This document shows positions 4,954 through 49,334 of a stretch of 64,000 bases of DNA, one piece after another (within the stretch, counting starts at the first letter, position 1; each line of letters starts with the position of its first letter). A program made the translations under genes and the position numbers. The notes below the pieces were generated by a model. That model did not search any database. It saw only the letters and a list, made by a program, of their open reading frames with translations, and was not told the origin of the DNA. This stretch comes from Takashimella koratensis (Eukaryota; Basidiomycota; Tremellomycetes; Trichosporonales; Tetragoniomycetaceae), in NCBI GenBank assembly GCA_003116875.1, contig BCKT01000001.1, positions 2,041,486-2,105,485 on the forward strand, written 5' to 3'.

Positions 4954-5224
4954 CTGGTTGCTGGTTGTCACGAGGTGGAGTGTATTGGAGTTAAACAGTG
5001 CATAGGATGTAGGAATAGACTTGGTTCTTGGTTTCTGGTTCCCTAGTGCTTGATGTACCGGTACATGGCTTCCCTACGGTGATGAGGACGAGCCGACCGG
5101 ATTTCTTGGCTCCTACGGACTCACTGACTGGTTCGTCTCCAATTTCACCGGCGTCAATCTAATCTCTTTCCCACAATCAATCGTCACTACTACTTTCACC
5201 ACGACCCATTGCACCTCAATCACC

Positions 5225-32700: not shown

Positions 32701-34408
32701 TCCAACATCAGCGGCTCGGTCGTCGACTCGTACTCGTACAAGCCGCCCCCGATCGCTTACTGGCAGCCAAGGCCGGGATCGAGTCTGCCCCTTCCCCCTC
32801 CTCCCCCGCCATTCTTGGCCCCGCCTCCTTGCCCTTTCCCTATGAAGAGCGAGGCGGACAAGTCCAAGGACAAGTCGGTTCCACCCCGGCCTTTTGCCCC
32901 GCCTCCGAGGTTTGCTGCGGCTGAAGCTCACAAGCAACACTCGCACGGCTTCTGCGGATTTGCTCCCCCAAGCGGCCCTCCAAGCTGGTACGACCCTTTG
33001 TACATCCCTGCCTCGCGCCCCGGGGTGCCGAGCGCCGCCCCACCTCCGCCGCCACCCCCGCCTCGCCCCGAGACGGCATCCTCCCGCAATTTTGTGGACC
33101 AAGACGAAGAGCCGGCCCCGGCTGCGCTCGCCAAGCCTATTGCCCCGGACAACCGATCGCCCGAGGAGTCGACCGAGTCGGTCATCGCGGCCATGTCGGG
33201 TCTGACCATTGCCGGTAGCATCATCGTCCCCAATGAGGATGTTCCTTCGCCCTCCAGCAAGGCGGAGGATAAGGAGGAGGAGGATGAAGAAGACGGATAC
33301 GATACTGCTGTTGAGAGCCAGCTCAGGGCCGTTCTTGCGGGCGCCACCCCTGTCTCCGTGGTGCCCACGTCCAAGGACAAGGGGAAAGCCAGGGAGGAGA
33401 ACGTCTCGTTCGTCTCGGATCTCACCAAGGGATTCCAGCAGCGCCAACTCTCGGGCGGGGCTGGTACCTCGCTCGAGCAACCTGCTCTTGATCACGCCCT
33501 GGGCAACATCCTTGCCGCCCTTCCTGCAATCCCCAAGGACCCCGTCACGCCCCTTGACATCTTCACCAGCGTCCGCCACGTTAACATCCCGCCAGGGACC
33601 ACTCTCCCCGTCGGTACCGTATTCAACAAGACCTGGTCCGTGCAGCACTTTGCCTCGGGCTCGGAATTCGACTTCACCCGTCTCCGCTTGGTCCACAAGA
33701 GTGCCAACCGACCCCCGGTCCCAACCCAGCTCAGCCTCGAATCGTGTTACTCCACCTTGTCGTTCACCCCGGAAGAGATCAAGGAAGGTGACGTGTTCAA
33801 CGTCACTGTAGATAACATGCGGGTCCCGAACGTTCCTGGAGAGGAAATCTTTGAGCAGTGGAGGTTTGAGGACGAGAAGGGTGTCGCGTATGGCCAGCCG
33901 CTCCGCCTCAGGTAAGTTTTGCTCGATGTGAAGATTAAATCGTGGGTTTGTCGCTGACTTGATTTCCAGGTTCATGGTTGAGAGGACGTCGTCGGGAGAG
34001 AGCTCTCTCGCTTCGTCGGCTGTGATCATGCCCGCTGCATCTATGATCTCCACCCCTTCTGAGATCTCCGAAGCCGCCGCTGTCGCACTTACCGCTTCCC
34101 TCCCTTCTGCCCCTGTTGTGCCCACTGTGGCCCGCTCGGGATCTACAGACGCTATGAGTGACGTGATTACTTCGTCTGTCCCGCCCTCGACGACGGACGA
34201 TAGCGACGCAGACGACGACGACGAGCTCGTTTCCATTCGATCCTCGGCGTTCTCATTCTCCGACATCTCGGAGGCAGCCGCCCCGTCTAACGCTGTAGAA
34301 ATCGAGAGTGTGCACTCTGCTCCGCGACCGAGTCGCAGCGTTACCTCGGATGACGAGTACGACTTTGTCGATGAGTCCGAGGACGAAGAGACCGCCGATG
34401 AGCTCTAA
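29776..34408 (+). CDS. NBR1: NBR1-type selective autophagy receptor
   Basis: Five exons, 29776-29868, 30042-30163, 30399-31938, 31993-33911 and 33970-34408, give 1370 residues. A PB1-like start (FVIRATLRDETRRINI, residues 1-95, including AHTFWANVLLFPDDAQLARI) is followed by a charged helical region (about 110-215). Three ZZ fingers follow: CDGCNTGIRGMRYKCEQCPD (about 570-615), CDLCSQTIIGIRWKCLNCPD (about 640-690) and CDGCDKPLRGVRYKCMHPDC (about 710-765). After a long Pro-rich linker comes an FW (NBR1 central) domain at about 1105-1230 with PVGTVFNKTWSVQHF and EIFEQWRFEDEKG. Near the C-terminus, DDEYDFVDESEDEE (about 1352) is a strong candidate LC3/Atg8-interacting motif. Role inferred from architecture: delivering cargo to Atg8 membranes or, as with fission yeast Nbr1, to an endosomal route. 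Intron 2 (235 nt) is long for this region. Confidence 0.9.
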
Positions 34409-34954
34409 CCGATCATAGTCAGGTCATCACGACACCCCCTACGCCCACTTTGTTCAAGTGGGACATCTTTCTTTCACTTCTCTCTATTTTGTCATATCTG
34501 TGACTGCCACCACCACCCTCTGTTGCTATTCACTACTCTGCCTTCTTCCTGTTGTTTGCGATCCCCCTCGCCTTTCCCGTTGTCTATCGTCTCCACGACC
34601 GCTTATGTACACGAAGTCTGCCGTAAAGAATCGTATGCTTCGTACAGAATCAAAGAAAGACTGCTAAAGAAAATAAAACCCAAAAGCAAGACCCAACAAG
34701 TTGGAAACAACAAGTCGTTGATACTCTTTCCTCAGCTCGTTGTCCATATGACTGTTCTGTAGTAATCCTGCTCCCTCGATGGAAACGTGAATTCTCGATA
34801 TCATCATTGCAGGTGAAACTGGAACTGGAAATGGGATTATCTATAAGCCATACAACAACAAAATCGTAGTGGTTGTTGGCTGAGAAGACCTCAACATGTA
34901 CAGTATGGAAATGATAAAGCATTCCCAGTCAAGAATTGTTCAGAACTGCGGACC
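34409..34954. other. Convergent 3' intergenic region NBR1/P1
   Basis: About 0.55 kb, AT-richer than its flanks. It separates the conserved gene block from the P1-P11 array. No gene was seen. Confidence 0.5.
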
Positions 34955-35761
34955 CTATACAAATTTTGCCTCTCTTGACCATTGGGCGCTGTTGTGGGTA
35001 ATGGATGTATCGTATTTTACATCATTATTTGCCCACTCGCAACAGGAGACCAAGGATTGAATCGGTGATTTCGGTTCGGTTCTTGTAGACTTCACCGACG
35101 ATTTCTTCCAGAGTACTTGCGTCGATATAGACTTTGTCCCATCGCTGATTCCACTGCCTTCCCTACCAACGCTCCCGATACCGCCCCCGTTCCCAGACTC
35201 TTCCTCCTCCCCTTGCTCGGCAGCCGGCTCGTTCGCCCCGGTCTCTACCATGAAACCTTCAGTCCTGACCCTCTCGCCCTCGCCCTGATCCTCTCTCGCC
35301 CAAATCCGTAAGGCTTGCACCGTCTCGGCACCCGCTCCCCTGTCGTACAATTGGAAGTGAAAAGGCGTATTGAACCCGACCTCACTCCAGGCGGCACCGT
35401 TGAAGTCGGTAGTCTCAGAGAGGGCTTCATCGAGCCCTGTACGAATGCTCACCCAGTGAGGTCCGTTGAGAAAGCCCGTCACCGCGTCGTCGATCAGTGT
35501 ATGAATGCGGTTCTTTACGTAAGTGAGTAGGCGTGACCCGCTCGATGGGATATGAGAGGGTCCCGGCGTTGTGAATCCATCATTCAGGAGAGGGAGCCTG
35601 AAGAGGGTGAATTGATAGGTCCCGCCTTCGAGTGACAGGTCTGGCGCAAGTACTTCGCCTTGTCCCGTGTCCCTGGCGGTGGGTGGGGGTAAAAGAAGGA
35701 CGGTGATGTGGTCAGCGTAAGGCGAGATCACCATGGTAGGTATTGAATCGGTTTCCGACAT
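34955..35761 (-). CDS. Array protein P1, divergent putative member
   Basis: 268-residue protein I do not recognise; intronless, ATG at 35761. It resembles the other array proteins weakly: a strand-like ADHITVLLLPPP near the start, where relatives have a variant of FEPP, and TPFHFQLYDRG near residue 170, where they have FNVYV. It differs in being longer, with extra sequence (GPHWVSIRTGLDEALSE) and an acidic Glu/Gly-rich C-terminal part (AAEQGEEEESGNGGG). No signal peptide or membrane segment. It is the left-most gene of the array. Family membership is an inference from position, strand, lack of introns and the two motifs; a profile comparison would settle it. Confidence 0.6.
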   Translation of the reverse strand: MSETDSIPTMVISPYADHITVLLLPPPTARDTGQGEVLAPDLSLEGGTYQFTLFRLPLLNDGFTTPGPSHIPSSGSRLLTYVKNRIHTLIDDAVTGFLNGPHWVSIRTGLDEALSETTDFNGAAWSEVGFNTPFHFQLYDRGAGAETVQALRIWAREDQGEGERVRTEGFMVETGANEPAAEQGEEEESGNGGGIGSVGREGSGISDGTKSISTQVLWKKSSVKSTRTEPKSPIQSLVSCCEWANNDVKYDTSITHNSAQWSREAKFV

Positions 35762-36180
35762 TGTGAAACGAACACTGGTGGAAGTTTTGGAATTTGGGTA
35801 GCAATAGTGAAGTGCGGATGAAAGTTTGCGCAAGTGTAGTGAGTTGAGAGAAAGTATGCTTTGAACGCAAGGAGAAGAGGAGAGGAGGAAGGCGTACCGT
35901 GAGGACCGTAGGGACCATAGGGGCTTGATGGATTTGTCGTACACGTTCGTTACCGCACCCAAGGTCGGAAGACGAAAAGCGCCTCGCCTCAAAGGGTCAA
36001 CACCCGGCAAACCAGCTAGGTCGACCAAGCGCGGAACCCCAGACATGCACAGGCGCCACATTGCCAAGTTGAGGCGACAGCGAGCGGGGAAGTCGGTTTT
36101 GGGACCTCCTTTCTGCCACAAGGGGTTGAAGAGGTCAGTGGACTTTGAGGAGCAGGCGGAATGTCGGCGAAGAGGGCTCG

Positions 36181-36183
<3 letters not shown>

Positions 36184-36236
<53 letters not shown>
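36184..36236 (+). repeat. Poly-G tract, about 53 nt
   Basis: An uninterrupted run of G on the plus strand between P1 and P2, about 420 bp upstream of the P1 ATG. It could form G-quadruplex structure and may vary in length. Confidence 0.9.
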
Positions 36237-36237
<1 letters not shown>

Positions 36238-36538
36238 GCAAGGGATGACCAGGATGCGCAGCACTATGGATGCTCCGTGCTTGCGTGCACTCGATATCAA
36301 GCTCAGGTCAGGAGTTGAGCGTTCATGGACTGACTGAATACATGACTTGGATGTATCTGAAGAACTTTGGGGAGACAAGGAATCTGGAGATTCGTAGTTC
36401 ATGTGAAAGACTCAGAAGAGGATGTGTATCTGAGAGGCACATTTGAAGGGGTAGGAATCAACCGAGTAAAAACTGTACTGCAACGTCTGATAAACGATTG
36501 GTGTCACCCCTCAGCTCAAACACGACAGGTAACAAATG

Positions 36539-36985
36539 TCAAGTCTCTACTGCGACTGAGAAATTCACTTTGGAATTTTTAGCGACGAGTGTCTTGAATT
36601 CGTCAAGATTCCCCTGGAGCACCCATTCGGTTGAGTCGGGGGATTGCGTCAGTTCGTCGTCAATGTCGGCGCGTGTCCGGAGCGGAAGCCAGCGGCGGGA
36701 TTCCTCAATGAGATGGACGTTGAATCCGCTGATGTGGGGGTAATGCTTGCGGATGTGTTCCTTGGCAAGTTCGATCAGATCGGGTGAAGAAGAGAAGGCG
36801 AGGAGGGTGAGGGGAGCCGAGCGAATGACAGGCAGATTGGCTTGTAAGGGTGCCGAGCTCCTGGTGGATGGCTCGATGACCGCAATGAAGCAGGAGACGT
36901 CGGTCGAGACGAGAGCGGAACACTTCGTGGAATCGAAGGCGTTCTCACTGGTCTTTGCCGTTCGTCTGTGCTTGGTTTGGGACAT
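36539..36985 (-). CDS. Array protein P2
   Basis: 148-residue intronless protein of unknown function. The ATG at 36985 is chosen because the frame then starts MSQT like its relatives; the frame is open further upstream. Family features: CFIAVIEPSTRSS (variant of the FEPP block), SGFNVHLIEESRRW (variant of the FNVYV block), and the C-terminal helix STEWVLQGNLDEFKTLV, matching P3 and P4 in pattern. With P3 and P4 it forms the first subgroup; these share upstream sequence as well. Cytosolic by appearance: no signal peptide or membrane helix. Confidence 0.8.
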   Translation of the reverse strand: MSQTKHRRTAKTSENAFDSTKCSALVSTDVSCFIAVIEPSTRSSAPLQANLPVIRSAPLTLLAFSSSPDLIELAKEHIRKHYPHISGFNVHLIEESRRWLPLRTRADIDDELTQSPDSTEWVLQGNLDEFKTLVAKNSKVNFSVAVET

Positions 36986-37096
36986 GCTTATGTTGGTTCG
37001 TTGGTGAGGTTGTCGGCAATGTTGCGGTTGAAGAAACGACTTGAAGCTAACTAGCCCAGTTTGGTTTAAGACCCCCTCGTAGTTCATACTCCTCCC

Positions 37097-37110
37097 GCTC
37101 CACTGCAAAG
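37097..37110 (-). promoter_or_regulatory. Shared upstream motif of P2 (CTTTG..GTGGAGC)
   Basis: In the gene's sense it reads CTTTGCAGTGGAGC, about 112 bp before the P2 ATG. Nearly the same sequence lies before P3 and P4 at 119-151 bp. It may be a conserved promoter element or a relic of the duplication that made these genes. Confidence 0.5.
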
Positions 37111-37508
37111 GAGAGTCCGCCTTCGCAGTGAAAAGTCGGCTCTGCCTGTTCATAAGGTGACAGTGGGCGACAGCCGTCTATTTTGGTGGAGGAGGAGAGG
37201 CAAGGACAATTGATGAAGGGATTGGCAGCTTGTCATTGGGCATGTCGTTGCGTTCCTGTGACTAGCAACGTGAGTGGAGTGACTATGGTCGAGCCGGCCA
37301 ATAGCTTTCGTGCTCTGACGCGGCCGCTCTCCTCCCTTTTGTGAATTTCGCCAAAGCGGCATTGGCGGTCAAGCAAAGTGACAAAAGCTCGAAAGGACTT
37401 CCAAATATAGGAGCTCTCTCCAAGCCCGCAAGCCTGCGCACCACAGTTTACAGTACACGGAAATGGCCACGCTGAAATGGGTCTAGCTGATAGATAAGGG
37501 AAGGGGTT

Positions 37509-37558
37509 GGGGGGGGGGGGNNNNNNNNNNNNNNNGGGGGGGGGGGGGGGGGGGGGGG
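37509..37558 (+). repeat. Poly-G tract with assembly gap
   Basis: G12, then 15 N (37521-37535), then G23, between P2 and P3. The N run shows the assembler could not read through; true length is unknown and may exceed 50 nt. Confidence 0.9.
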
Positions 37559-37839
37559 CAATGGGTAGCCCACAGAGTGTTGATTCTGCCATTTTCTCTA
37601 AGCTTCTTGTCCTGAATGATTCATGTATGGGTTGAAGACACCAATCTGCATTCTGATCGAGATTCATTGAGAAACTGTGAGCTGAAAGAGAAATGAAACG
37701 TCGAGAGACAGTATTGGAGGGAGACAGACGGCCAGAAGGGAAGGTTTATATGGATGATATATCTCGTGGGTAATGTAGGCCACGAACTCATCTTAAAACA
37801 TGTCCCACTTTCGCCCTGTACAAACTTTGCACGCCAAGA

Positions 37840-38310
37840 TCAATGGTCAACTCGTTTCCCGTTCTCGAAGCGCGTGAAGGCTGTCGACTGCTTCTCGACC
37901 AACTCCTGGAGCTGGTTCACAGTCGCTTCGAGGACAAGGCTGGTGGTGGTGTTTTCAGGGTCCACCGGGCAGTCTGAGTTGGACCTTGCCTCGAATTCCT
38001 TCCAGCTGTTCAAGGACTGAAAGCAGTGAACGTTGAACGTAGTGATGTCGCGGTAGAAGGCGTCCATGTGTCTCTTGACGGTGTCGACCTTGTTGTCGAA
38101 AAAGGGATCGAACCAAAATTCGAAGGGAAGGTTGCGGGACTTGCAAACCATGCGATCCGAACGCATGCGGGCCGATGATTCGGGCTGTGTGAGAGCCGAT
38201 CCGTCGGTGGACGGTTTGAAGACAGCCATTGTGGTGGTTCCCACGCCTCCAACGAAGACCGAAGGCGTCTTGGGATCGAATACGAAGCGGGGTTCGTTCT
38301 CGGTTGACAT
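37840..38310 (-). CDS. Array protein P3
   Basis: 156-residue intronless protein of unknown function, ATG at 38310 (MSTENEP). It shows VFVGGVGTTTMAVFKPSTDG (FEPP-block variant), ITTFNVHCFQSLNSW (FNVYV-block variant) and a C-terminal helix TTSLVLEATVNQLQELVEK that aligns closely with P4 and more loosely with P2. An aromatic patch (FEFWFDPFF) in the middle is its own. The start is preceded by a leader that shares blocks with that of P2 (TTCTTCAAC.ACAACATT). No introns, signal peptide or membrane segment. Confidence 0.82.
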   Translation of the reverse strand: MSTENEPRFVFDPKTPSVFVGGVGTTTMAVFKPSTDGSALTQPESSARMRSDRMVCKSRNLPFEFWFDPFFDNKVDTVKRHMDAFYRDITTFNVHCFQSLNSWKEFEARSNSDCPVDPENTTTSLVLEATVNQLQELVEKQSTAFTRFENGKRVDH

Positions 38311-38460
38311 TGTCGTTCGTGGGTGCGTGGGTGTGTGCGCGGGGTGGTGTGGTGGTGTGCTGGCCTTGTTTGAGCGTTCGTCAGTAATGTTGTAGTTGAA
38401 GAACTCCCCATCAAGTTAACTCCACGCTTTGATGAGCTCCTCGAGGTCGACACTCTGTCA

Positions 38461-38474
38461 GCTCCACTCAAAAG
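38461..38474 (-). promoter_or_regulatory. Shared upstream motif of P3 (CTTTTGAGTGGAGC)
   Basis: Sense-strand CTTTTGAGTGGAGC, about 151 bp before the P3 ATG; counterpart of the elements before P2 and P4. Confidence 0.5.
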
Positions 38475-39118
38475 ATGTCCCCTACTGGCTGTCAAAGGAT
38501 CTATCTACCTTGGCGGTTCACAAGATCTTCCAGGTAGTGTGAGGCTGACTTATGCTAGTGGCTAGAAAATACAAGAAAGTGTCGTGAAGGGAGTGATAGC
38601 AGGTCGTCGTGTACGTCATTGACTCGTTAGGATGAGACGCGAGTGGAGCTACAATGGTCGACTCGGCGAACGATCCCCTGTTCCAACTCTCTTCCACCAC
38701 CTCCGGAGGTTTTGCCAATTCCCCCATTGGCAAAAGGGTGAGGGGAGCCTTCGTAAGGCGTCATTTTGCCACAACGAGCAAAGTTGCATGCCTTGAGTCA
38801 GAAACTGCTGGACAGGACTCAGAGGTGCAGGAGAGCAGAGTAGCGAGGCAGCATTTCACCACAACGTAAGGTTTCTACTCCCCGGTCTGAATCTCAGGTC
38901 TAGAATATTCTCAGCTGGTTGTCAGGGATGCATTTGAATGTACTCTTCGGTTTTGTTACTGTTTGGGAGGACTATGGGGAGAGATGATATTTGGCAGAGG
39001 ACCTGAAGGGAAAAAAGGGGGAAAAGGGCGGGACCACGCATCCAGCATAGGGTTTTGAGTGATCCAACGACAGAGACCACAGAGACCATGATTCCTTCTT
39101 CGAAATAAGCTTGGGTGG

Positions 39119-39739
39119 CTACCCGCTGACCTTCCTGGTGGCTGAGACGACGAGACCCATGTCAATTTCGAAGAGGTTCTTTGATGAGATCTTGACCATG
39201 TTCTGGAGCTGTTTCACAGTCGCCTTGACGACAAATGAAGTACGGAGATCGTCGGCCTTGATCGAGAAACCATCCTGCTCGTGGGAGCCGCTCTGAATGG
39301 AGTGGTCGGAAGTCTCGGTGTTCTCGACGAAAACGAAGTCGTGATCATCGGAAGCCGCTGAGGTGAGTTTGGTTTGAACGGCAGTCGACATGGGGTGGGC
39401 TGGGGAACGTACTGCGGTCACGAAAGGCTTCAGAGAGCTCCCTTTGACGTAGTGTATGCGGTAGTGAGCAAGGTCGGAGTACTGGGTAGTCATGTGCGTG
39501 TGAAGGCGTTTCCGTGACTTTGAGCTTTTCTCGAACGGCTCCCAAATCACTGGGAAAGAGCACATGTCGGTCGCTTCGGTGACTTGAGCGTTGGATCCTT
39601 TGCCTTTGGCTGGCTCGAACACCGAGAGAAGGAGGTCTTCACCTTTTGAGACGAAGACGGATGGTTGTCCAGGGTCGAATGAGTATTGGTCGAGAATGCG
39701 AAAGTTGTCGGCGCGTTTGTAGTCTGTGGCGTCGGACAT
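39119..39739 (-). CDS. Array protein P4
   Basis: 206-residue intronless protein of unknown function, ATG at 39739 (MSDATDY). Family features: PSVFVSKGEDLLLSVFEPAK (FEPP block; the PSVFV word is also in P3), HYRIHYVKGSSL (variant of the FNVYV block) and RTSFVVKATVKQLQNMVK, the subgroup helix shared with P3. It is longer than most because of an acidic insertion (DDHDFVFVENTETSD) before that helix. A TTAAAAAG box lies about 138 bp upstream (39877-39884). Confidence 0.82.
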   Translation of the reverse strand: MSDATDYKRADNFRILDQYSFDPGQPSVFVSKGEDLLLSVFEPAKGKGSNAQVTEATDMCSFPVIWEPFEKSSKSRKRLHTHMTTQYSDLAHYRIHYVKGSSLKPFVTAVRSPAHPMSTAVQTKLTSAASDDHDFVFVENTETSDHSIQSGSHEQDGFSIKADDLRTSFVVKATVKQLQNMVKISSKNLFEIDMGLVVSATRKVSG

Positions 39740-39857
39740 GATTGAGACGGTAGTCGTTGGCGAGGTTGTGGAGGATGTTGAGGTTTAACATAAAGCTGTG
39801 GTCACAACAGCGGGGGAATATTGGTTGCGTGCTCAGAGAGAGGTGGACGCCCTACCT

Positions 39858-39870
39858 ACTCCACTCAAAG
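39858..39870 (-). promoter_or_regulatory. Shared upstream motif of P4 (CTTTGAGTGGAGT)
   Basis: Sense-strand CTTTGAGTGGAGT, about 119 bp before the P4 ATG and just downstream of a TTAAAAAG box. Confidence 0.5.
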
Positions 39871-40127
39871 GTGAGTCTTTTTAAGCCTTCAAAGGATTGG
39901 TCTGGTCAAGAATAGTGGCAGTTCAATCCTCGGCCAGGTGACCTAGAAAGAGCGTGCAGATTGGTGTCTTTGATGACTAGCGAAAATCTAACCTACTTTT
40001 GTTGGACCAGAGTGACGGAGGCCGGAACGATGAAGGAGCATGATACCAATTAGTTCATCGTTGCTGTGCCTCTGTTGTCCCATTATTGCATAGAACATAG
40101 CAAGACCAAGACCTCCTATTCTCCTGT

Positions 40128-40568
40128 TCAATTTCCCGATGCGCTAGATACAACCTCTCTTTCATCCTTGGTAAACAACTTCGTCGGCTTGCCGATGGAG
40201 CGGAACAGCATGTCAATCTTGTCGCCAGCAGGCTGGATGGCGGAAAACATTGGCTTGTCATCGAGGAAGATTTCCGACTCTTTCAGCAGTGTATCGAGGT
40301 CATTGGTGCACGTATGCACGGTGTAGTCGGTGATGGATGCAAAATTCCCACGCATGAACTTGGGGACCAGATCGTTGAGTTCGGTGTCGTTGTCGGTCAA
40401 CTTGGTTTTTGTCACCCAGGGTTTCGAAGCCTCGCTGTCTTCTTCGTCCTCGCTTTCGCTCTTGCCTGGCTCGTAGATGAATAGTGACCGGTCGGTCCCT
40501 TCATTAGAGACAAAGACATGAACCCTTTGGAGATCCAAATTGTGCTTGTTGGTGTCGTCAACAGACAT
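40128..40568 (-). CDS. Array protein P5
   Basis: 146-residue intronless protein of unknown function. The first ATG in frame is at 40568 (MSVDDTNKHN). It has VHVFVSNEGTDRSLFIYEPG (FEPP-block variant, like P3 and P4), an acidic run SESEDEEDSEAS, then ITDYTVHTCTNDLD in place of FNVYV. The C-terminal helix differs from both subgroups (MLFRSIGKPTKLFTKDE). A TATA-like TCTAAAAG lies 81 bp upstream. Membership rests on the first two blocks, size, strand and position. Confidence 0.75.
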   Translation of the reverse strand: MSVDDTNKHNLDLQRVHVFVSNEGTDRSLFIYEPGKSESEDEEDSEASKPWVTKTKLTDNDTELNDLVPKFMRGNFASITDYTVHTCTNDLDTLLKESEIFLDDKPMFSAIQPAGDKIDMLFRSIGKPTKLFTKDEREVVSSASGN

Positions 40569-40648
40569 CAATGTTTTTCGAAGTACGCGGGGGCAGGTGG
40601 GAAAGGGGAAGAAGGGAGACGATTTGGAATGGTGAGGTGAGTCGGAGA

Positions 40649-40656
40649 CTTTTAGA
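40649..40656 (-). promoter_or_regulatory. TATA-like box of P5 (TCTAAAAG)
   Basis: Sense-strand TCTAAAAG 81 bp before the ATG, at the spacing seen for other array genes. Confidence 0.4.
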
Positions 40657-40995
40657 GTTGTGGACTGGTAATTAAATGACGAGAGGGAGGGGAATGTGGT
40701 GATGCGAAAACGACTCTGGAGTCAGCTTGCGATAAGTGGTCAAACATGACGTGAAGCTCCGACGAAATAAGTCAAAGGAAGGACGGGGAGAGTTATCAAA
40801 GGATGACTTCCCGTAGAAATGTGGCAGCATGTACTCCCTCTCGAGCTTACTCGATGGTCTGCCAGACGGTAGTACAACATGCAAGACTAGACTTCTGCAC
40901 ATGTAGAGCCAACAAACAAACGAAGTGCATATATCGTACTCGTTGCAATATCGCCAATCTTTCAGCTTCGAATCAATACCTCATTCCCTGTCGAT

Positions 40996-41013
40996 CGGGG
41001 GGGGGGGGGGGGG
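40996..41013 (+). repeat. Poly-G tract, about 18 nt
   Basis: Run of G on the plus strand beginning only a few bases after the P6 stop codon, so it would be C18 in the P6 3' UTR. It also sits about 430 bp upstream of P5. Confidence 0.9.
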
Positions 41014-41016
41014 AAG

Positions 41017-41565
41017 TTATTTCCCCAGTCTGACGAGTGTGGAGACATCGTCACTGTATTTCTCTATATAATCCTTCAATGTCAAGCCGTGGCGCTCTTC
41101 TGCGTTCGCACCAGTGGTTCGCGCATAGGTCTCGCTCAACTTGATCGTGAAGGATTTGCCTGCGTGCATTGTCGCAGGAATGCCAGGAAAGAAGTCACAG
41201 ACATTGGCGTGCGTAGCGTTGCTTTGACAAACCCCCCAACTGTCGTATGTATAAAGATTAAACGATTTATCCTCGTCTTCCAAAATCCCCCCAACGTAGC
41301 TTGCCACTTGACTCTTGAGGTCCTCTGCCGACGTTTTTACAGCCTTCAAGATAAAACATGCGGTTTCCCTGACGTCGGCCACTGTGCCCCAGGTGTTTAT
41401 TGGGTCGTTGGAAGATACCACTCTCGGCTTCTGAGTGGAAGGGTCGATCGACATGGTCCCGGGTCTCACCAACATCCCGAAGATCTCGTTACTGTCTCTG
41501 TCAAAAGAATAGATGACTGACGGCTGTGGGTCAAAGTCGTGGCTGGTGGCGGCGTCTTCAAACAT
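41017..41565 (-). CDS. Array protein P6
   Basis: 182-residue intronless protein of unknown function, ATG at 41565 (MFEDAATSHDFD). Blocks: PSVIYSFDRDSNEIFGMLVRPG (FEPP variant), DKSFNLYTYDSWGVCQ (FNVYV variant), SFTIKLSETY, and GLTLKDYIEKYS near the end, which resembles the TLKDAVEACS and RLKEAIESCS of P10 and P11. The section between the first two blocks (ETACFILKAVKTSAEDLKSQ) is longer than in P7-P11. A TATAAGAA box lies 86 bp upstream. Confidence 0.8.
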   Translation of the reverse strand: MFEDAATSHDFDPQPSVIYSFDRDSNEIFGMLVRPGTMSIDPSTQKPRVVSSNDPINTWGTVADVRETACFILKAVKTSAEDLKSQVASYVGGILEDEDKSFNLYTYDSWGVCQSNATHANVCDFFPGIPATMHAGKSFTIKLSETYARTTGANAEERHGLTLKDYIEKYSDDVSTLVRLGK

Positions 41566-41650
41566 GAGTGTAGTGTAGCTTGCCAGTGTATATCGTGATA
41601 TAATGTCGATTCAGTGTTAGGAGCGGGGTGGAGTTGAGATAGAACACACG

Positions 41651-41658
41651 TTCTTATA
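41651..41658 (-). promoter_or_regulatory. TATA box of P6 (TATAAGAA)
   Basis: Sense-strand TATAAGAA about 86 bp before the ATG. Confidence 0.5.
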
Positions 41659-42263
41659 GTGCATGTCTGACCCCCGAAGAGGGAGACATCCTCGTCGTCA
41701 AAAGAGTGCGATGAGCCCCGCTGAAAGGTTCCCTCTTCACAGCTGCGATACTACAACCCCTGAAAGCCTCGACTTGCCGTGACGTTCGTTTCAAAATGAC
41801 CTTCCCTTGACCGTTTCTCGGACTTTCCGGTCTGGTCTCCTTTGCATTGGGGAGCTTCCTTTGGGAGGACAAGATGATAGGGAAATCCCCACTCCTCTAG
41901 AGAGTCCACTCAACGTAGTTGAAGCCTTGCGAGAACATGTTGGGAGGGTGTGCATTCGCTGCTATTTGAGGTCTCGATGTAAGCTACAGAGAAGAACCTT
42001 ACCGTTTCGAACATTCACCAAGTTGTCGTTTCGCCTTGAAACCCGGGAATATGAGAGAAGGCAACGCTTTCATTGGATGATTGTTAGGTTTTGACAATGT
42101 CAGAGGTAGATCCATGCGTTTCCTGAGTATACTCAATGTTATGCACTGCTGTGGAGGTGCAAAACCCAAATGCTCAAGCAACATCCGCCTTAGAATACTG
42201 GGATCATATCAACTCTGTAGCCTTATGTTAGGTATGATGGGGGGGAAGTGCGGAGGCGGCCTG

Positions 42264-42425
42264 TGCGGTCCCGAAGTACCTGAAATGCCGATAACGGTCC
42301 GTGCGGGGTGGCGCACGCCGAGACCGATAGGAACAATAGGTAGTGCTGCAGCGCAAGGTGCGCGAGCGGTTGCTGCTCTGGAAAGCGACGAGGATGTATG
42401 GGCGACGCGCAATGTCAGGTATCAA
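42264..42425 (+). repeat. Dispersed repeat, copy 1
   Basis: About 160 bp beginning GTCCCGAAGTACCTG and running through GCGGGGTGGCG, GAACAATAGG, GCAGCG and GACGCGCAA. Copy 2 starts about 195 bp downstream in the same orientation with clear but diverged similarity. It sits in the 1.4-kb gap between P6 and P7. No open frame of note and no recognisable transposase. Confidence 0.75.
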
Positions 42426-42464
42426 ACCCAAGAACTGCGGAGTTGATCCAAGGTGATCCGAGCA

Positions 42465-42710
42465 GGTCCCGAAGTACCTGGGATGACGAGAGGGGACCGA
42501 GCGGGGTGGCGTAGGCCGAGGCCACGGAGAACAATAAGGCCACTAGTAGGGCAATGCAGCGCTGCGGCGCACGAGCCCACGAGCGGTTGCGGCCGCGGAG
42601 ATCGACGGGGATGCATGCACGACGCGCAAGCGGTCGAGGCCGATCTGGTGCATTTAAATAGCAGTCTGTAGCGTCGAGAAATGAATCCCCAACCCGTTGA
42701 AATCTAACAC
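42465..42710 (+). repeat. Dispersed repeat, copy 2
   Basis: About 245 bp with the same leading segment as copy 1 (GTCCCGAAGTACCTG) and the same internal words, continuing into a tail GTCGAGAAATGAATCCCC, AACCCGTTGAAATC at about 42671-42705. The tail segment recurs in diverged form about 85 bp further (42752-42792) and in copy 3. Confidence 0.75.
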
Positions 42711-42751
42711 GCAAGCCGTTGTGGCCTGCAGAAGAGGATGAAAAGATCAGT

Positions 42752-42792
42752 CCCTGGCGTCGAGAGATGGAATCCCAACCCGTCGAAATCTA
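42752..42792 (+). repeat. Extra tail segment of the dispersed repeat
   Basis: GGCGTCGAGAGATGGAATCC, then CAACCCGTCGAAATCTAAG; nearly repeats the end of copy 2 (about 42670-42708). Confidence 0.75.
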
Positions 42793-42933
42793 AGAAGGGA
42801 GTCAGCTTCCTTAGGAAGACGCCGCTGCCCTTTTTTCTCTCGGTCGGTCATTATCATGTATACGCAGCCGTAAAGGGTGGGGCCACCTATTGATTTCACC
42901 AGCAAAACCTGTATGAAGAACACTACCGTTCAA

Positions 42934-43350
42934 TCAAGCGTTTGGTACTGGATGATAGTACTGTGAGCTCGAGCTGCGAGTTTCCGCAAGCTCTTTCAAC
43001 CTCTCTACGTCAAGAGACTCCGTGGGTATCTCGAGGCTGGAGATAATAAAAGCCTCTTCGTTGTCTGGGAACGTGAGCGTGCAGGATGTTTCCATGTCCG
43101 TCTTGGAGCCGTCCCACACGTAAAGATTGAAAGACTCGCTTTTCAGCTCATCTGCAGCAAACAATCCGATCTGTTGCACTCGCTTGGCGGCGTCGTACGG
43201 GACTAGAGTGGTGCGTATGACACTCCTCTTGGTATCAGCACCCGTGGAAGGAGGCTGCACGGCAATGACGAAGGTCTTGTCAGACTCGAAAGCCGCAATG
43301 ATGGAAAGCTGGCTGTCAAAATCGAGGGTGGATGGTGCAGTGGTGGCCAT
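42934..43350 (-). CDS. Array protein P7
   Basis: 138-residue intronless protein of unknown function. I choose the ATG at 43350 (MATTAPSTLDFDSQLS) over an in-frame ATG at 43488. It aligns with the starts of P10 and P11, and a TATATATG box lies between the two ATGs. Blocks: DFDSQLSIIAAFESDKTFVI then AVQPPSTGADTKRSV; ESFNLYVWDGSKTDMETSC; and a C-terminal IPTESLDVERLKELAETRSS helix like the second subgroup. It belongs with P8-P11. Confidence 0.82.
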   Translation of the reverse strand: MATTAPSTLDFDSQLSIIAAFESDKTFVIAVQPPSTGADTKRSVIRTTLVPYDAAKRVQQIGLFAADELKSESFNLYVWDGSKTDMETSCTLTFPDNEEAFIISSLEIPTESLDVERLKELAETRSSSSQYYHPVPNA

Positions 43351-43422
43351 ATTTACGAACGAAGTACTGAGCTTGAAGCGTTTGTCACCTTGGAATGGCT
43401 GGCAAGCTGCAATGGACGGTGG

Positions 43423-43430
43423 CATATATA
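43423..43430 (-). promoter_or_regulatory. TATA box of P7 (TATATATG)
   Basis: Sense-strand TATATATG 73 bp before the chosen ATG. It lies inside the longer open frame, which argues for the shorter protein. Confidence 0.55.
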
Positions 43431-43982
43431 CCAGTTGACCCACCAGTCCAGACCGACTTGGAAGGCCTCCCTTTTCTCGAGGCGTCATGCCAACCTTTCA
43501 CGCTCTGATTCACTCTCACTCCGCCTTCTCTTCGGGTTGTGGGTGAGGTGAGAAGTCGTTTTTCCCACCTTCCTTAAACCACCTGCAGCGCCTGAGTGCA
43601 ACCCCGAGATCTCTTCCTTTACACCCTGACTCGGGCTCGGGATAGCTCCTTACACACATTTCGGGCTTTTTGTCGCTCGCATTTCGATTCTCATATGGCT
43701 CGTCCGATCTGTTACCGGCTATTCTTCTTTCTTACCCAATCACAATCAAAGTAGAGGGAGCCAAGTCAAAAAGGGTCACGACTGAAAAGATCTCCTTTGC
43801 GATGTGAGAAAACGAAGTCAACTTGATGACAGCTGCCGAGCAGTGAGAAGAGGGTTATTATTCAGGGATACCTTCGCTCAGCCTCAACTCCCATGCATCT
43901 CTGACGTGTTTCTCACATCCTCAGATCTGGATACGAAAAGATACGAGTGATTCCGTCATCGGGACGACTCTGCCACAGATGG

Positions 43983-44420
43983 CTAGCCCCTCAGGTGCCT
44001 GAAGCCATAATTTTGGTTGCCTACGCTCATGCAATGAACGACAAGCATATCACAAGCAGCCAAGGTTTGTTCCGGGGTACTTCCAGTATCATTGTTGACT
44101 GCTGGGAACTCCGTGGTGTAAACCTCTCCATCCGTGAAAGTTAATTCCGGAGGCAGATTGGAGGGCCCCATATCAGGTACTTCTTCCTTCACAATGTGCA
44201 TGTTGAAAGTCCGCGGGTGATTGAGCTTGCTGGACACGTAGCTCAAGACTTCACCAATTCGAGAGTTGATCTCACCGTTCTGATATTGAGACAGGATCTT
44301 CGAAGCTTGGGCCTTGCGTGTGGTACCCGAGGATTGGTTTGAGGGCTCGAAAGCAATGATGCTGGTGAAATCCGGGTTAAACTTCACCAAGAGGAGAGGC
44401 GTATTGGTGTACTGGGACAT
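43983..44420 (-). CDS. Array protein P8
   Basis: 145-residue intronless protein of unknown function, ATG at 44420 (MSQYTNTP). Blocks: LLLVKFNPDFTSIIAFEPSN, then RTFNMHIVKEEVPDM, then VYTTEFPAVNNDTGSTPEQT with LAACDMLVVHC. The order and spacing match P7 and P9-P11. The region between blocks one and two is a charged helix (INSRIGEVLSYVSSKLNHP). A strong TATATAAAG box precedes it. Confidence 0.82.
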   Translation of the reverse strand: MSQYTNTPLLLVKFNPDFTSIIAFEPSNQSSGTTRKAQASKILSQYQNGEINSRIGEVLSYVSSKLNHPRTFNMHIVKEEVPDMGPSNLPPELTFTDGEVYTTEFPAVNNDTGSTPEQTLAACDMLVVHCMSVGNQNYGFRHLRG

Positions 44421-44524
44421 GTTGCTTCTGATTGTTGAGGCAGTGGTGTTCGGATATGATATGTATCGGATTCAAGTAGGACGAGAACAAAGATTCGTGG
44501 GGAAATTTGGATAACAAACGGTCG

Positions 44525-44533
44525 CTTTATATA
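44525..44533 (-). promoter_or_regulatory. TATA box of P8 (TATATAAAG)
   Basis: Sense-strand TATATAAAG about 105 bp before the ATG; the best consensus match in the array. Confidence 0.65.
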
Positions 44534-44570
44534 TGTATCTCGAGGAGGGGAGGGGAGGGGGTTTTTCTTT

Positions 44571-44588
44571 GGGGGGGGGGGGGGGGGG
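44571..44588 (+). repeat. Poly-G tract, about 18 nt
   Basis: Run of G on the plus strand about 150 bp upstream of the P8 ATG, just beyond its TATA box. Confidence 0.9.
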
Positions 44589-45159
44589 CGGACAGCCGTC
44601 GCAGGGCTGCAAGCTGCAAGACATACCGCGTGCTACGGAGTTAGATTTATGCCTACCAAGACCAAAACGGCGGCGACAATTTGAAAAGCGTCCGATAGCT
44701 TTCAAAGGTGCCGATAAAAGGAGTGATGACGTTATCGAAGGCAAGCGGTTGTCCATCATCCGACCTCTTTTCAGCCCGTTTGGCTGAGCACAGTGGGAGC
44801 ATTATCCACCCCGATCAAAAGAGTCATTGTTCAGTCGAGTGCGTCGGCTGTATGCGAAGGCTTTTGTCCTCTCAGTGTTTGAGCCCGAACCACCAACCTT
44901 GGACGCAAGCCGGTTACGGCAGCAAATGAGACCAACGATGGCATTGCTTTACTCCCGAATGGATACCTCCGAAGGCAAATAATGGAAGGAGAGCACGTCA
45001 TGGCTCAAGTTGGAATGGAGTGTGTGTAGCCGGGGGTTAGAAAAATGGAAAAAGGAGGGCACTCATGCGTTATCAGCTGCCGGAAAGTGGCAAGGCCCGA
45101 TTCAGCTCGCAGGTGCAGAGTTTCTCGTTAAACGACTTCTTGAGCTGTTAAGCGCCATG

Positions 45160-45405
45160 GTCAATACGATTTTAACGGGTTGGGGATCCATCCCAGGCGC
45201 TACTGAATAGATATATGTCCCTCTGCTCTGACTCAACCGCTTGCGTGTCGTTGATGCCTGTCCGTCGTTCTCTGCAGCTACAACAACTGGCGCACCGTGC
45301 GCTGCGGCGCTCATTAGTATCATTTTTTGTTCGATTTCGATTTCGGCCTGCGCCAACCCGCTCGGAACGTTATCGGCAGCCTGGGTACCTCGGTACCGCA
45401 CGATT
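45160..45405 (-). repeat. Dispersed repeat, copy 3 (inverted)
   Basis: Read on the minus strand it follows copies 1 and 2: CGAGGTACCCAGGCTGCCGA, then CCGAGCGGGTTGGCGCAGGC, GCCGCAGCGCACGGTGCGCC, GACACGCAAGCGGTTGAG and the tail GGATCCCCAACCCGTTAAAA. It is as diverged from each copy as they are from each other. It lies in the 1.3-kb gap between P8 and P9. A 115-codon frame crosses it but I do not call it a gene. Confidence 0.7.
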
Positions 45406-45703
45406 CCCCTTCGCGAGTCCTCAATCGTCACACCTGACGCATTAATCATCCCAAGAGAGAAAATGCTTGCGGCTCGGGTGAGGGAGACTCGATTGTCTTA
45501 GCTGGGTGCAAGGTAAGCCAGTTGATGTGTGGTAGGTTGTACTCGTAGTGCATTCGAAGCGTCCACAAATAACTCATCAGATCCTTTTCATCTCTACTGA
45601 TTCTCCGATAACTTATTGAATCGCTAACACCAGCCACTAGACCTAACCAAAGCTGCCTTCAGTACCGTGGGATGATTTCGCACCATGTGGCCCACAGTCT
45701 CCA

Positions 45704-46153
45704 CTATTTAGTCTGCCACTGATTGCCTTTCCACTTGAAAGATTTGATAGTGGATGCCTGGAGAGTATCGTTCAAGGATGTATTGGTCGTTGAGTTAAAT
45801 TTGGGCACAGTGACCTTGACGATCTCACCGTCAGGCTTGGGGGCTCCTTCGTAAAGTGTGGGATCAAGGTCTTGGAATTCCGAAGTATTCCTGTCAACCT
45901 CAAGTACGTTAAACGACAATGGTGAACGAAGCCGATTGTTCACGAAATCTTTCACCGAGTTGATACGCGCGTTCTCATCCATTGTTGAATTTTTGGATAC
46001 AAAAGTCGCGCCATATCCATGTCTGATGGTCTCGTCGGGTCGGCCGGAAGCCTCAATGGCGAGGATGTTAGTCAAGTCATCGAGGTTCTCAACTATAATC
46101 GTTAGTTCATCGTCAAAGTCGGACGGAAAGGCAGTATTAGCGATGGAAACCAT
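45704..46153 (-). CDS. Array protein P9
   Basis: 149-residue intronless protein of unknown function, ATG at 46153 (MVSIANTAFPSDFDDE). Blocks: DFDDELTIIVENLDDLTNIL then AIEASGRPDETIRHGYGATF, close in layout to P10 and P11; LSFNVLEVDRNTSEFQDLD; and VKVTVPKFNSTTNTSLNDTL at the C-terminal end. It is followed by a short basic tail (KWKGNQWQTK). The 5' leader holds a perfect 23-bp tandem duplication and the promoter a TATAAAAG box. Confidence 0.83.
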   Translation of the reverse strand: MVSIANTAFPSDFDDELTIIVENLDDLTNILAIEASGRPDETIRHGYGATFVSKNSTMDENARINSVKDFVNNRLRSPLSFNVLEVDRNTSEFQDLDPTLYEGAPKPDGEIVKVTVPKFNSTTNTSLNDTLQASTIKSFKWKGNQWQTK

Positions 46154-46202
46154 TGTGCTCAGGAGTTAAATATCCTTGAAAGTTCAGGTAGAACCTGGGA
46201 AG

Positions 46203-46248
46203 AATTGAAGTGTGGAGGCGTGAAAAATTGAAGTGTGGAGGCGTGAAA
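46203..46248 (-). repeat. Perfect 23-bp tandem duplication in P9 leader
   Basis: Two identical 23-bp units at 46203-46225 and 46226-46248, beginning AATTGAAGTGTGG on the plus strand, between the TATA box and the ATG of P9. Perfect identity suggests a recent event. Confidence 0.95.
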
Positions 46249-46266
46249 GCATCGAGGCAGAGATAA

Positions 46267-46274
46267 CTTTTATA
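46267..46274 (-). promoter_or_regulatory. TATA box of P9 (TATAAAAG)
   Basis: Sense-strand TATAAAAG about 114 bp before the ATG; the spacing includes the 23-bp duplication, and without it the spacing would be about 91 bp, like the others. Confidence 0.6.
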
Positions 46275-46851
46275 TGTAGAGGGGCAATAGTGTTCGATAG
46301 GCTGTGAAAAGCGTTGAGAGAAAAAAAACTTCATGCATAATGGTTCATCAAGCGGAGTTTATGGAGTGAGTCTGGACCGCGACAGAGCTGTCGGTCATCG
46401 TTCCATTGAAGACAACCACTCAAAGGCTGTCAACTCGGGGTTTTCTTTGTCAAAGGAGAGCTGGAATTTCCGTTTGTTAGCATTGTCCAACTCGGCCCCC
46501 AATCAAGACATCTTTCAATCAGACATCATGAAGACTCAAATTTTCTGCTCCCGCGGTCGAGTTCTTCGGGTGAGTCTTTGGTCACGGGCTAGACATTTAC
46601 CTATCGTGCTTTCACGACGTCAAATCGCCTTTCCTTTAAAGCTTTCTGAGACCGCCGGAGAGAAAGTGAGCACTGGAAAGCAGCTGACGTATGGGGCTTT
46701 ATGCCATGACAACAACGCAGAGGAGAACATGGGCGCGGCTTTCCAGGTCTGCATGCATATCCGGATTCAGCTGAGACTACTCCAAGTGCTGGGGCGACCA
46801 CCCAATCGCATCCCTCTCAACATACCGATCAAGCCTCCTCTCGACAACGAC

Positions 46852-47301
46852 TCAAGTTTTAGGGCGAAACTCATACAAGATCGAACAAGCTTCGACTGCA
46901 TCCTTCAATGTTTTGTTCCCTGTTGACACCGATGGAACCTGGATATTGCATAGCGTAGCCCTTCCCCGCCGTTCACCCTCGCTCTTGACTCTGGTCAACC
47001 TAAAGGCACTTAAATCTGAGGTAACCGTTTGGCAAATATACACGTTGAACGAAGGGGTTTCATTGAAGTCGGTGAGGATGAAACTTTGGATCTGAGACAA
47101 GCGAGCTTCATGGGCCTCGGCAGACGACTTGAAGTACGTACAGAAGCCAGAGCGCATATCCGTATCGAGCGAGTCACATGGGGGATCGATGGCTACGATT
47201 CTGGTGACTTTGCCGCTACCGACAAAATTGACGATGAAAGACCGCTGAGAATCGAAATCACTGGTCCGTTTAGGTAGAGTATCAGCTGTAATTTGGGACA
47301 T
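46852..47301 (-). CDS. Array protein P10
   Basis: 149-residue intronless protein of unknown function, ATG at 47301 (MSQITADTLP), chosen because it aligns with P11 and P7 and follows a TATA-like box. It is the closest relative of P11: SDFDSQRSFIVNFVGSGKVT then RIVAIDPPCDSLDTDMRSGF and CTYFKSS; SFNVYICQTVTSDLSAF; VPSVSTGNKTLKDAVEACS. It ends in ILYEFRPKT. No signal peptide or membrane helix. Confidence 0.85.
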   Translation of the reverse strand: MSQITADTLPKRTSDFDSQRSFIVNFVGSGKVTRIVAIDPPCDSLDTDMRSGFCTYFKSSAEAHEARLSQIQSFILTDFNETPSFNVYICQTVTSDLSAFRLTRVKSEGERRGRATLCNIQVPSVSTGNKTLKDAVEACSILYEFRPKT

Positions 47302-47373
47302 GATGATAGCTGAGGTCAAGCAAATCGTGCAGTAATTGTATTGGTGCTGATGAGGGGTGAAACGGTTTGGTGC

Positions 47374-47385
47374 TAAATATTTAAA
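47374..47385 (-). promoter_or_regulatory. TATA-like box of P10 (TTTAAATATTTA)
   Basis: Sense-strand TTTAAATATTTA about 73 bp before the ATG. Confidence 0.5.
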
Positions 47386-47962
47386 TGGAGACATGATACC
47401 GGCCAACTCGAGTGAAAAGGTAAATGAGTGTGTTTTGCTGTGGTGGAGGGGAAAGGGGGAAGGCGCATTGCTGAGACGAGAGGCAGCGTTGCTGTCGGTG
47501 TACCAAAGCGAACGAAGGCGCGCGTCTCTGGCCATTATACCTGAAACCTCCAGCGCCTCTGCTACGGACACTGAAACATACGTAAAGCGGCGGACTACGA
47601 GCTCCTTTGAAGCCCGCGTATCTCTCACAGTCCAGTCTATCTTATGTCTCTGTCAGGGGGTGTCCAAAGAAAGGAGTCATTATCAGAGCAAATGTCGAGG
47701 CGTGGAGTTTTCGTGCTATATCCAACCTCTGGGAATTTCTAGCACATTCATAACCTTTCTGCGCGATTCCATGTATACCAAGTGCAATACCCACCCCTTA
47801 GAGGATCCAAGAGATACAGGCTCAGTATCTGGCAGAGCGAGCACACTCAGGAATGCATGCGAGGGTACAAGGCTGTCACCATTTTTGCCTGTCTGCATAA
47901 CCTCTTCGTCACGTCAACACTCTTTCACCTCAGCAAACGCGTACTGAACCGGATACTGATCC

Positions 47963-48388
47963 CTATTCTAGGCGATATTGAGTTGCGCTTGAGCACGATT
48001 CAATGGCTTCCTTTAATCTCACTTTGGTTGACAGCGAGGACGGGACAGTGAAGCGTTCAGTACCTCCAGGGGTGGTCGGCGTCTCATCGACTTTGGTCAT
48101 TATGAACGCCTTGATTTCGGATGTCACTTCCTTACACACGTAGACGTTGAAAAGCTTGGTGTCCTTGTAGTTCGTACTAATGTACTTGACAGCCTCTGTC
48201 AAGCGGTCTTCGGCTGAAAGTCCGTACGTTCTGAAATCGGTACAAAAGCCCGTTCGTAATTCAGTATCGGGATTCTCAGGAGGTTCGAAAGCGACAAGCT
48301 TGGTAATATCGCTTTCCCCAGAGAAACTGAGGATGTACGACCTTTGGCCGTCGAAGTCGTAGATCCCGGGTTTCGTTTCAGTCGCCAT
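47963..48388 (-). CDS. Array protein P11
   Basis: 141-residue intronless protein of unknown function, ATG at 48388 (MATETKPGIYDFDG). It gives the clearest view of the family: YDFDGQRSYILSFSGESDIT, KLVAFEPPENPDTELRTGFC and TDFRTYG (block one); a charged helix EDRLTEAVKYISTNYKD; LFNVYVCKEVTSEIKAF (block two); and ERFTVPSSLSTKVRLKEAIE with SCSS (second-subgroup end). It closes the array on the right; beyond it the conserved genes resume. Confidence 0.85.
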   Translation of the reverse strand: MATETKPGIYDFDGQRSYILSFSGESDITKLVAFEPPENPDTELRTGFCTDFRTYGLSAEDRLTEAVKYISTNYKDTKLFNVYVCKEVTSEIKAFIMTKVDETPTTPGGTERFTVPSSLSTKVRLKEAIESCSSATQYRLE

Positions 48389-48481
48389 ATTTGTCTTGGT
48401 AGTGTCATAGTTCTGGTATGGTGTGGTGTAAGTCAAATTTTGAGTGAAGTTGGGGAAAGAAAACTATAGGTCACCCTCCAG

Positions 48482-48490
48482 CATATAATA
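48482..48490 (-). promoter_or_regulatory. TATA-like box of P11 (TATTATATG)
   Basis: Sense-strand TATTATATG about 94 bp before the ATG. Confidence 0.5.
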
Positions 48491-49334
48491 TCGTCGCTCG
48501 ACTAGTACAATCCGAGAGACAGCTCTCGAAACCTGAAGTGAAAGGAGGAGAGCGAGTCGAGGATACACACTCTCTCTGGTTCACGAAACTAGACAAAGGC
48601 CCTCCTCACCCGCGACACTTGCATGGAAGGTAGAGGACAGAAAAGTCCAGCTAGCTATAAGAATGGTCCGTGAGGATTTTTGCACCAGTTGAAACCGCCA
48701 GAAGGCCACGAACTGGGAAGCGTCACACTAAAGGAGTGAGTGCTCTGAGTGGACGCAATTGGCCGCCACCCTAAACATACGGCGGGGTGGTAGAGCGGCG
48801 AACGATTTGGGGTAAGTCCAGGCTCGGGAGCGCCTTTGAACCCAGCCATGCTCAGTTATGCCGCAGTTGGGTAATGGAAAGGAATCCCGCGGTCGACATC
48901 GAGAGCGAGAGCAGAGACGTGAGAGTCAACATGAGAGGCATACGGCGACATAAGTATCCTTTCATGTGGCGCAAAGAGACCGAGAAAGCCACATCGAGCG
49001 CGGGCCGTGGGCAGGTGAATAGTCCGCCCACGTCTCGCTCCCTTGCCCACACCTTAGCCCGATCGTTAGGGTAGTATGCCATGGGACGAATGCATAGTGA
49101 CATGCGTCCAAATCAAGAGAAACAAATGGGCAGGGGACACAGCATGGACAACGCAAGAAGTGGTAGGATAAGATTATCGGGCGGTAGAGGGGTCTCGGTA
49201 GTGGGTAGTTGGGGATGAGTACGCGGACAACATGAAACAATGGTATGACAGCAGGTGGTGCGGATGGCGGTAGGGTTGATGATGAAGATGAGACCAGGGG
49301 TCGCAAGTGCAGATAGGTTTGGTCAAACCGACGG
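48491..49334. other. Intergenic region between P11 and the SAP30-like gene
   Basis: About 0.85 kb marking the right border of the array: promoter side of P11, then the 3' flank of the SAP30-like gene. No convincing gene or tRNA was seen. Confidence 0.5.

Follow-up and report, generated by a model that had tools for sequence, protein, structure and literature searches.

A tandem array of ten paralogous small-protein genes with a common upstream word in Takashimella koratensis

Between conserved genes of the basidiomycete Takashimella koratensis lies a run of small open reading frames (ORFs) that raises a simple question: do they form a single gene family, and if so, how old is it and what might its products do? 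The run occupies 34955–48388 of a 64,000-nt stretch (the window; positions 2041486–2105485 of one contig in an assembly of 25.1 Mb and 24 contigs), where an initial annotation had described eleven head-to-tail minus-strand genes, P1–P11, as fast-diverging paralogs. The 11 ATG-initiated ORFs were recovered in that arrangement, all on the minus strand. By sequence comparison, P2–P11 are one paralogous family related by common descent, which therefore comprises ten genes rather than eleven.

Membership was assessed by a leave-one-out comparison, in which each protein was scored against a profile of the other nine with 500 shuffles of itself as the null, and every member of P2–P11 outscored all 500 of its own shuffles (10/10). 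In pairwise alignments, 21 of the 45 pairs among P2–P11 exceeded the 99% level of 150 control pairs (z 3.55; control maximum, 5.95). The strong divergence initially described was confirmed. The FEPP-like block and the FNVYV-like block that follows it were found in this constant order throughout P2–P11, with loose variants in P4, P5, and P6. By profile comparison, the ten genes were neither unrelated to one another nor assignable to one well-studied conserved family, while P1 was rejected as a member on its sequence, a loosely similar strand pattern being visible by eye. Pairwise alignment also separated two adjoining clans, B (P2–P5) and A (P6–P11), which are listed below with leave-one-out profile scores and the number of shuffles scoring as well.

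P1, 34955..35761, minus strand: adjoining orphan ORF, family membership unsupported (151 of 500 shuffles as good; z ≤1.5 against the other ten).
P2, 36539..36985, minus strand: clan B, 148 amino acids (aa); 24.4 bits, 0/500; P2–P3 z 15.6.
P3, 37840..38310, minus strand: clan B, 156 aa; 26.5 bits, 0/500; query of the clan B structure model.
P4, 39119..39739, minus strand: clan B, 206 aa; 14.3 bits, 0/500.
P5, 40128..40568, minus strand: clan B, 146 aa, C-terminal part shortened; 20.8 bits, 0/500.
P6, 41017..41565, minus strand: clan A, 182 aa; 12.9 bits, 0/500.
P7, 42934..43350, minus strand: clan A, 138 aa; 30.0 bits, 0/500.
P8, 43983..44420, minus strand: clan A, 145 aa; 29.3 bits, 0/500.
P9, 45704..46153, minus strand: clan A, 149 aa; 35.3 bits, 0/500.
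P10, 46852..47301, minus strand: clan A, 149 aa; 71.8 bits, 0/500; 39% identical to P11.
P11, 47963..48388, minus strand: clan A, 141 aa; 74.8 bits, 0/500; query of the clan A structure model.

The starts of P2 (36985), P7 (43350), and P10 (47301) were refined using the conserved start methionine. The clans are bridged by P11, which aligned with P2, P3, and P4 at z 4.8, 5.0, and 4.2, respectively. The clan B profile picked up P8, P10, and P11 (0/500 shuffles each), and the clan A profile picked up P2 and P3 (1/500 each). The most diverged member of clan A was P6 (z 4.5–6.3 against P7, P10, and P11), and in P4 a long insertion separates strands 4 and 5.

The order of the genes bears the marks of tandem duplication, as the initial annotation had proposed: the farther apart two genes lie in the array, the less alike they tend to be (a trend matched in strength by 39 of 5000 random orders), and P2, P3, and P4 have leader DNA in common.

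Leader DNA, 37000..37035, minus strand: common to P2, P3, and P4; copies at 38368–38403 and 39756–39791, each 75% identical.

A further copy in this repeat family, a 69% match, lies beyond the array at 49254–49289. In five pairs from clan A, identity was 53–66% at second codon positions and 19–33% at third positions. The third positions have thus drifted almost to the chance level with the amino acids preserved, which points to old duplications and constrained proteins in clan A; the claim of fast divergence was accordingly left unsupported. The ratio of nonsynonymous to synonymous substitution rates (dN/dS) was of no use here because synonymous change in clan A is near saturation. In clan B, first, second, and third positions of P2–P3 were 44, 49, and 47% identical, third positions of P3–P4 were 43% identical, and the GC content at third codon positions was high in both pairs (0.67–0.74); the P2–P3 and P3–P4 duplications may be younger than those of clan A. 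All ten ORFs of P2–P11 are intact, and in each the gene's own frame was the best of the six (10/10).

Regulation of the array, suspected from the start, gained support from a word found upstream of the genes. CAAAGG was present in the 450 bp upstream of all ten genes P2–P11, as compared with 26.6% of 440 genome segments drawn from twenty 10-kb stretches, and CAAAGGA was present in eight (absent from P8 and P11), as compared with 7.7% of the same segments and 7 of 108 segments elsewhere in the window. When all 6-, 7-, and 8-letter words were searched in 300 random ten-segment background sets, none reached as low a best P value (0/300). After P3 and P4, whose upstream regions descend in common with that of P2, were dropped, CAAAGGA was still found in 6/8. 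The sites are as follows.

CAAAGG, 37106..37111, plus strand: 126 bp upstream of P2, the first of 15 sites upstream of P2–P11.
Further CAAAGG sites (first base): 38493, 39866, 39890, 40773, 40797, 41839, 41858.
Further CAAAGG sites, continued (first base): 43794, 44703, 46421, 46451, 47604, 48594, 48833.

Across the eleven whole intergenic stretches, P1 included, there were 16 CAAAGG sites, 14 of them within 310 bp of an ATG and 11 in the same orientation. A longer word, TTTGAGTGG, is common to the upstream regions of P3, P4, and P9, and TATAWA precedes the ATG of P7, P8, and P9 by 80, 113, and 121 bp, respectively. Overall, the common promoter word suggests co-regulation of P2–P11. In the whole 25.1-Mb genome, CAAAGGA has 5506 copies, and both it and TCAAAGG outnumber their reversed spellings about twofold (TCAAAGG, 4718 vs 1975; CAAAGGA, 5506 vs 2859).

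The CAAAG core is known from high-mobility-group (HMG)-box factors. The pheromone response element of smuts, bound by Prf1, is given as ACAAAGGGA (PMC3248468); it has the CAAAGG core in common with the array word, and differs in that the array word is CAAAGGA, often with a T before it. In Cryptococcus, the HMG protein Mat2 is reported to bind elements of this kind in front of genes induced by pheromone (PMC3744442), a likeness that rests on the description and not on a comparison of site letters. An HMG-box factor as regulator of the array is therefore a lead rather than a finding.

Structures were modelled with AlphaFold2 from alignments that have no sequence in common. The clan A model (five sequences) had a predicted local distance difference test score (pLDDT) of 78.1 and a predicted template modelling score (pTM) of 0.73, with the order E-E-E-H-E-(short helix)-E-H-E (E, strand; H, helix). 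The clan B model (four sequences; pLDDT 64.7, pTM 0.64) repeated this order of elements, with one additional short helix and a short final strand. From these models, we infer one fold for both clans, namely three strands, a helix, a strand, a variable loop, a strand, a helix, and a strand. Foldseek found no solved structure at an expectation value (E) ≤0.001 for either model, and its top rows (GNAT acetyltransferases and fluorescent proteins) were dropped, as their TM-scores were 0.14–0.23, with one row at 0.31. No 19-residue stretch of P2–P11 exceeded 1.31 on the Kyte-Doolittle scale, which was counted in favour of soluble proteins. In a crude test for the secretion signal of small effector proteins, N-terminal 12-residue maxima were 0.08–1.85 and no hydrophobic signal was indicated; the maximum of 1.85 belongs to P2, at residue 25, within strand 1.

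Searches for relatives returned no credible family for the genes in Pfam (P1–P11 scanned), PHROGs, NCBIfam, or PADLOC, in agreement with the initial annotation. Several weak matches were attributed to chance: Cass2 (E 0.065), DUF5496 (E 0.067), and THSD1_D3 (E 0.12) in Pfam, TIGR04318 on P5 (16.3 bits, where the cut-off is 950), PHROG 19741 (E 0.018, one member), cytokine receptor chains (E 0.032), and importin beta (E 0.61). Eight single-protein queries (P1, P2, P3, P4, P6, P7, P10, and P11, but not P5, P8, or P9) found no credible copy outside the array in the 25.1-Mb genome, in a search that is weak on distant copies, as P6 and P4 each recovered themselves alone. A P1 match elsewhere (E 0.058) contained internal stops. 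Two weak P2 matches (E about 0.07) lay in stretches whose ORFs were unremarkable against the family profiles; one of them is antisense to an 889-aa ORF that we take to be RPB2, and the best profile score in the two stretches (7.8 bits, E 0.037) fell on a different 70-aa ORF and was attributed to chance. Among 5.8 billion proteins, the P7–P11 profile (676 candidates) and the P2–P5 profile (1759 candidates) gave no match at E ≤0.01, in a search that depends on shared five-residue words and an estimated 45–50 bits or so and would miss orthologues below roughly 35–40% identity. As a control, FCF1 from the window found its best matches in Cutaneotrichosporon and Kwoniella, at up to 93% identity, showing that related fungi are present in that database; proteins of the fungus itself, a tremellomycete-like basidiomycete by this comparison, seem to be absent from it. 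Literature listings contained no matching description of such an array.

What, then, might the array be? We tentatively propose, as a possibility well short of an expectation, that P2–P11 form an old, co-regulated tandem family confined to a single locus, whose products are small alpha/beta proteins, soluble and intracellular, that serve as non-catalytic modules. No acid is conserved across all ten proteins, which was counted for the non-catalytic reading, and P2–P11 are probably non-catalytic, as judged from the alignment. As to their biochemical role, we infer binding or adaptor modules rather than enzymes, their core conserved and their loops variable; the genes would be switched on jointly by a factor recognising CAAAGG(A), in a conditional programme such as mating and development or stress, and the duplicates would keep the scaffold while partners or dose were altered through loop changes. 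A bolder version, which we regard as quite unlikely, is a new fold family of ten co-regulated paralogs acting as sex- or stress-induced interchangeable binding modules under HMG-box control in one tremellomycete branch.

Several observations weigh against the proposal. The link between the clans is weak: the clan B profile missed P6, P7, and P9 (74, 60, and 101 of 500 shuffles as good), the clan A profile missed P4 and P5 (65 and 33 of 500), and a profile-profile comparison of P7–P11 with P2–P5 aligned 29 columns, from helix 1 to FNVYV only, at 25% probability. Constraint in clan B appears weak from the codon positions of P2–P3, confidence in the clan B model is low, and the role is without support from any homologue. 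The promoter word was picked after inspection of the data, its background segments were largely coding, and the nearer controls for CAAAGGA were small (19 low-ORF segments, 10.5% of them with the word, and 32 stretches lying upstream of long ORFs, 12.5%). Exact ACAAAGGGA had 0 copies in 34901–49300, which does not indicate a smut-type pheromone regulon.

The same evidence may be read in other ways. A recognition or conflict family, as the initial annotation suggested, in which loops vary with changing partners (viruses, mobile elements, or non-self cells), is unlikely: it would suit the tandem paralogs, the inserts of differing length between strands 2–3 and 4–5, and a dispersed repeat inside the array, although neutral drift also yields variable loops, there is no sign of recent turnover given the near-saturated synonymous sites of clan A, and PADLOC, searched for anti-phage defence families at E ≤0.1, matched none of the ten members. 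That the array is decaying, largely non-functional, and retained by chance seems improbable to us. Compared with the other members, P5 and P6 are eroded, and codon usage is weakly coding-like in P6, P9, and P10, but all ten ORFs have stayed intact and best in their own frames despite the near-saturated third positions, and a promoter word is held in common.

The absence of coding introns from every member in an intron-rich region might instead point to a captured gene, that is, an ancestor from an RNA virus or retroposition that was later duplicated in tandem; RNA-virus-derived fungal genes have been proposed (PMC2805616). Any intronless ancestor would account for the lack of introns, however, no viral structural model matched the clan A model at E ≤0.001 (the best, a Harvfovirus protein, at E 0.015), and PHROGs gave nothing better than the single-member match mentioned above. 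We consider capture very improbable. We give the least credence to an active RNase H-like enzyme or ATPase family, which we consider highly improbable. Its support lies in a second structural look with VIA, in which 43 of 50 rows for clan A and 37 of 50 for clan B were assigned to RNase H-like or actin-like folds, at Z ≤4.4 and ≤3.5, respectively, a level that the tool calls common. The RNase H-like superfamily has conserved catalytic acids on the first strand and on later elements; in the alignment of P2–P11, no acidic column is conserved within strand 1 and none elsewhere across all ten, D13 (ahead of strand 1) and P36 being the only nearly invariant positions. The absence of a conserved acid in strand 1 makes an RNase H-type catalyst unlikely.

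On one side, the array is flanked by an NBR1-like gene (its ORF, 31948–33912, carries ZZ and N_BRCA1_IG domains); on the other lie ORF 49726–50265, without a Pfam match, and FCF1 from 51093. The contrast in introns drawn initially was checked in part: the P genes can each be aligned as one uninterrupted ORF and lack coding introns (their untranslated leaders may contain some), FCF1 has at least 7 introns when spliced by reading the sequence, and the DNA2 domains in the window are split over two separate ORFs. Scans of the window with Rfam (gathering threshold) and for tRNAs gave no match. Elsewhere in the window, ORF 5054–6070 carries a NADAR domain (E 9.8e-36).

The dispersed repeat within the array, of about 270 bp (45160–45450), had 42 genome matches including itself, mostly 67–75% identical and on many contigs, in a count for which 40 of 52 candidates were scored. 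ORF 45102–45449 overlaps it and was rejected as an extra member (z ≤1.1 with every P gene). Related inverted repeat copies with an internal duplication lie at 42250–42800, and a 23-bp unit is repeated head to tail, at 96% identity, just upstream of P9 (46199–46244). Long poly-G tracts occur between P genes at 36184–36236, 37509–37558, 40997–41013, and 44571–44588, one of them broken by 15 N. Runs of at least 17 G are frequent across the genome (4304 matches forward and 5355 reverse, overlaps counted), and the idea of an array-specific poly-G switch was set aside because the tracts are common.

The locus as now understood holds ten related genes, not eleven, and is old rather than demonstrably fast-evolving. 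Should both the promoter word and the common fold be confirmed, it would be a clean case of an orphan family persisting intact long after duplication, with a concrete cis-element available for testing. Compared with the RNase H-like/actin-like superfamily, both predicted models resemble it in strand order, first helix, and weak structural alignments, whereas P2–P11 are without conserved catalytic acids, score at background level, and have an extra C-terminal strand-helix-strand order in their models. Tandem-expanded lineage-specific gene families are familiar from eukaryotes, for example plants and animals, and several features of such families are seen here: homology among P2–P11 though not P1, ten consecutive minus-strand ORFs, and greater similarity between neighbours. 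Like tandem-expanded orphan families, P2–P11 are small head-to-tail paralogous ORFs at a single locus with no detectable relatives; they differ in that the duplications in clan A are old rather than recent, and a promoter word is common to both clans.

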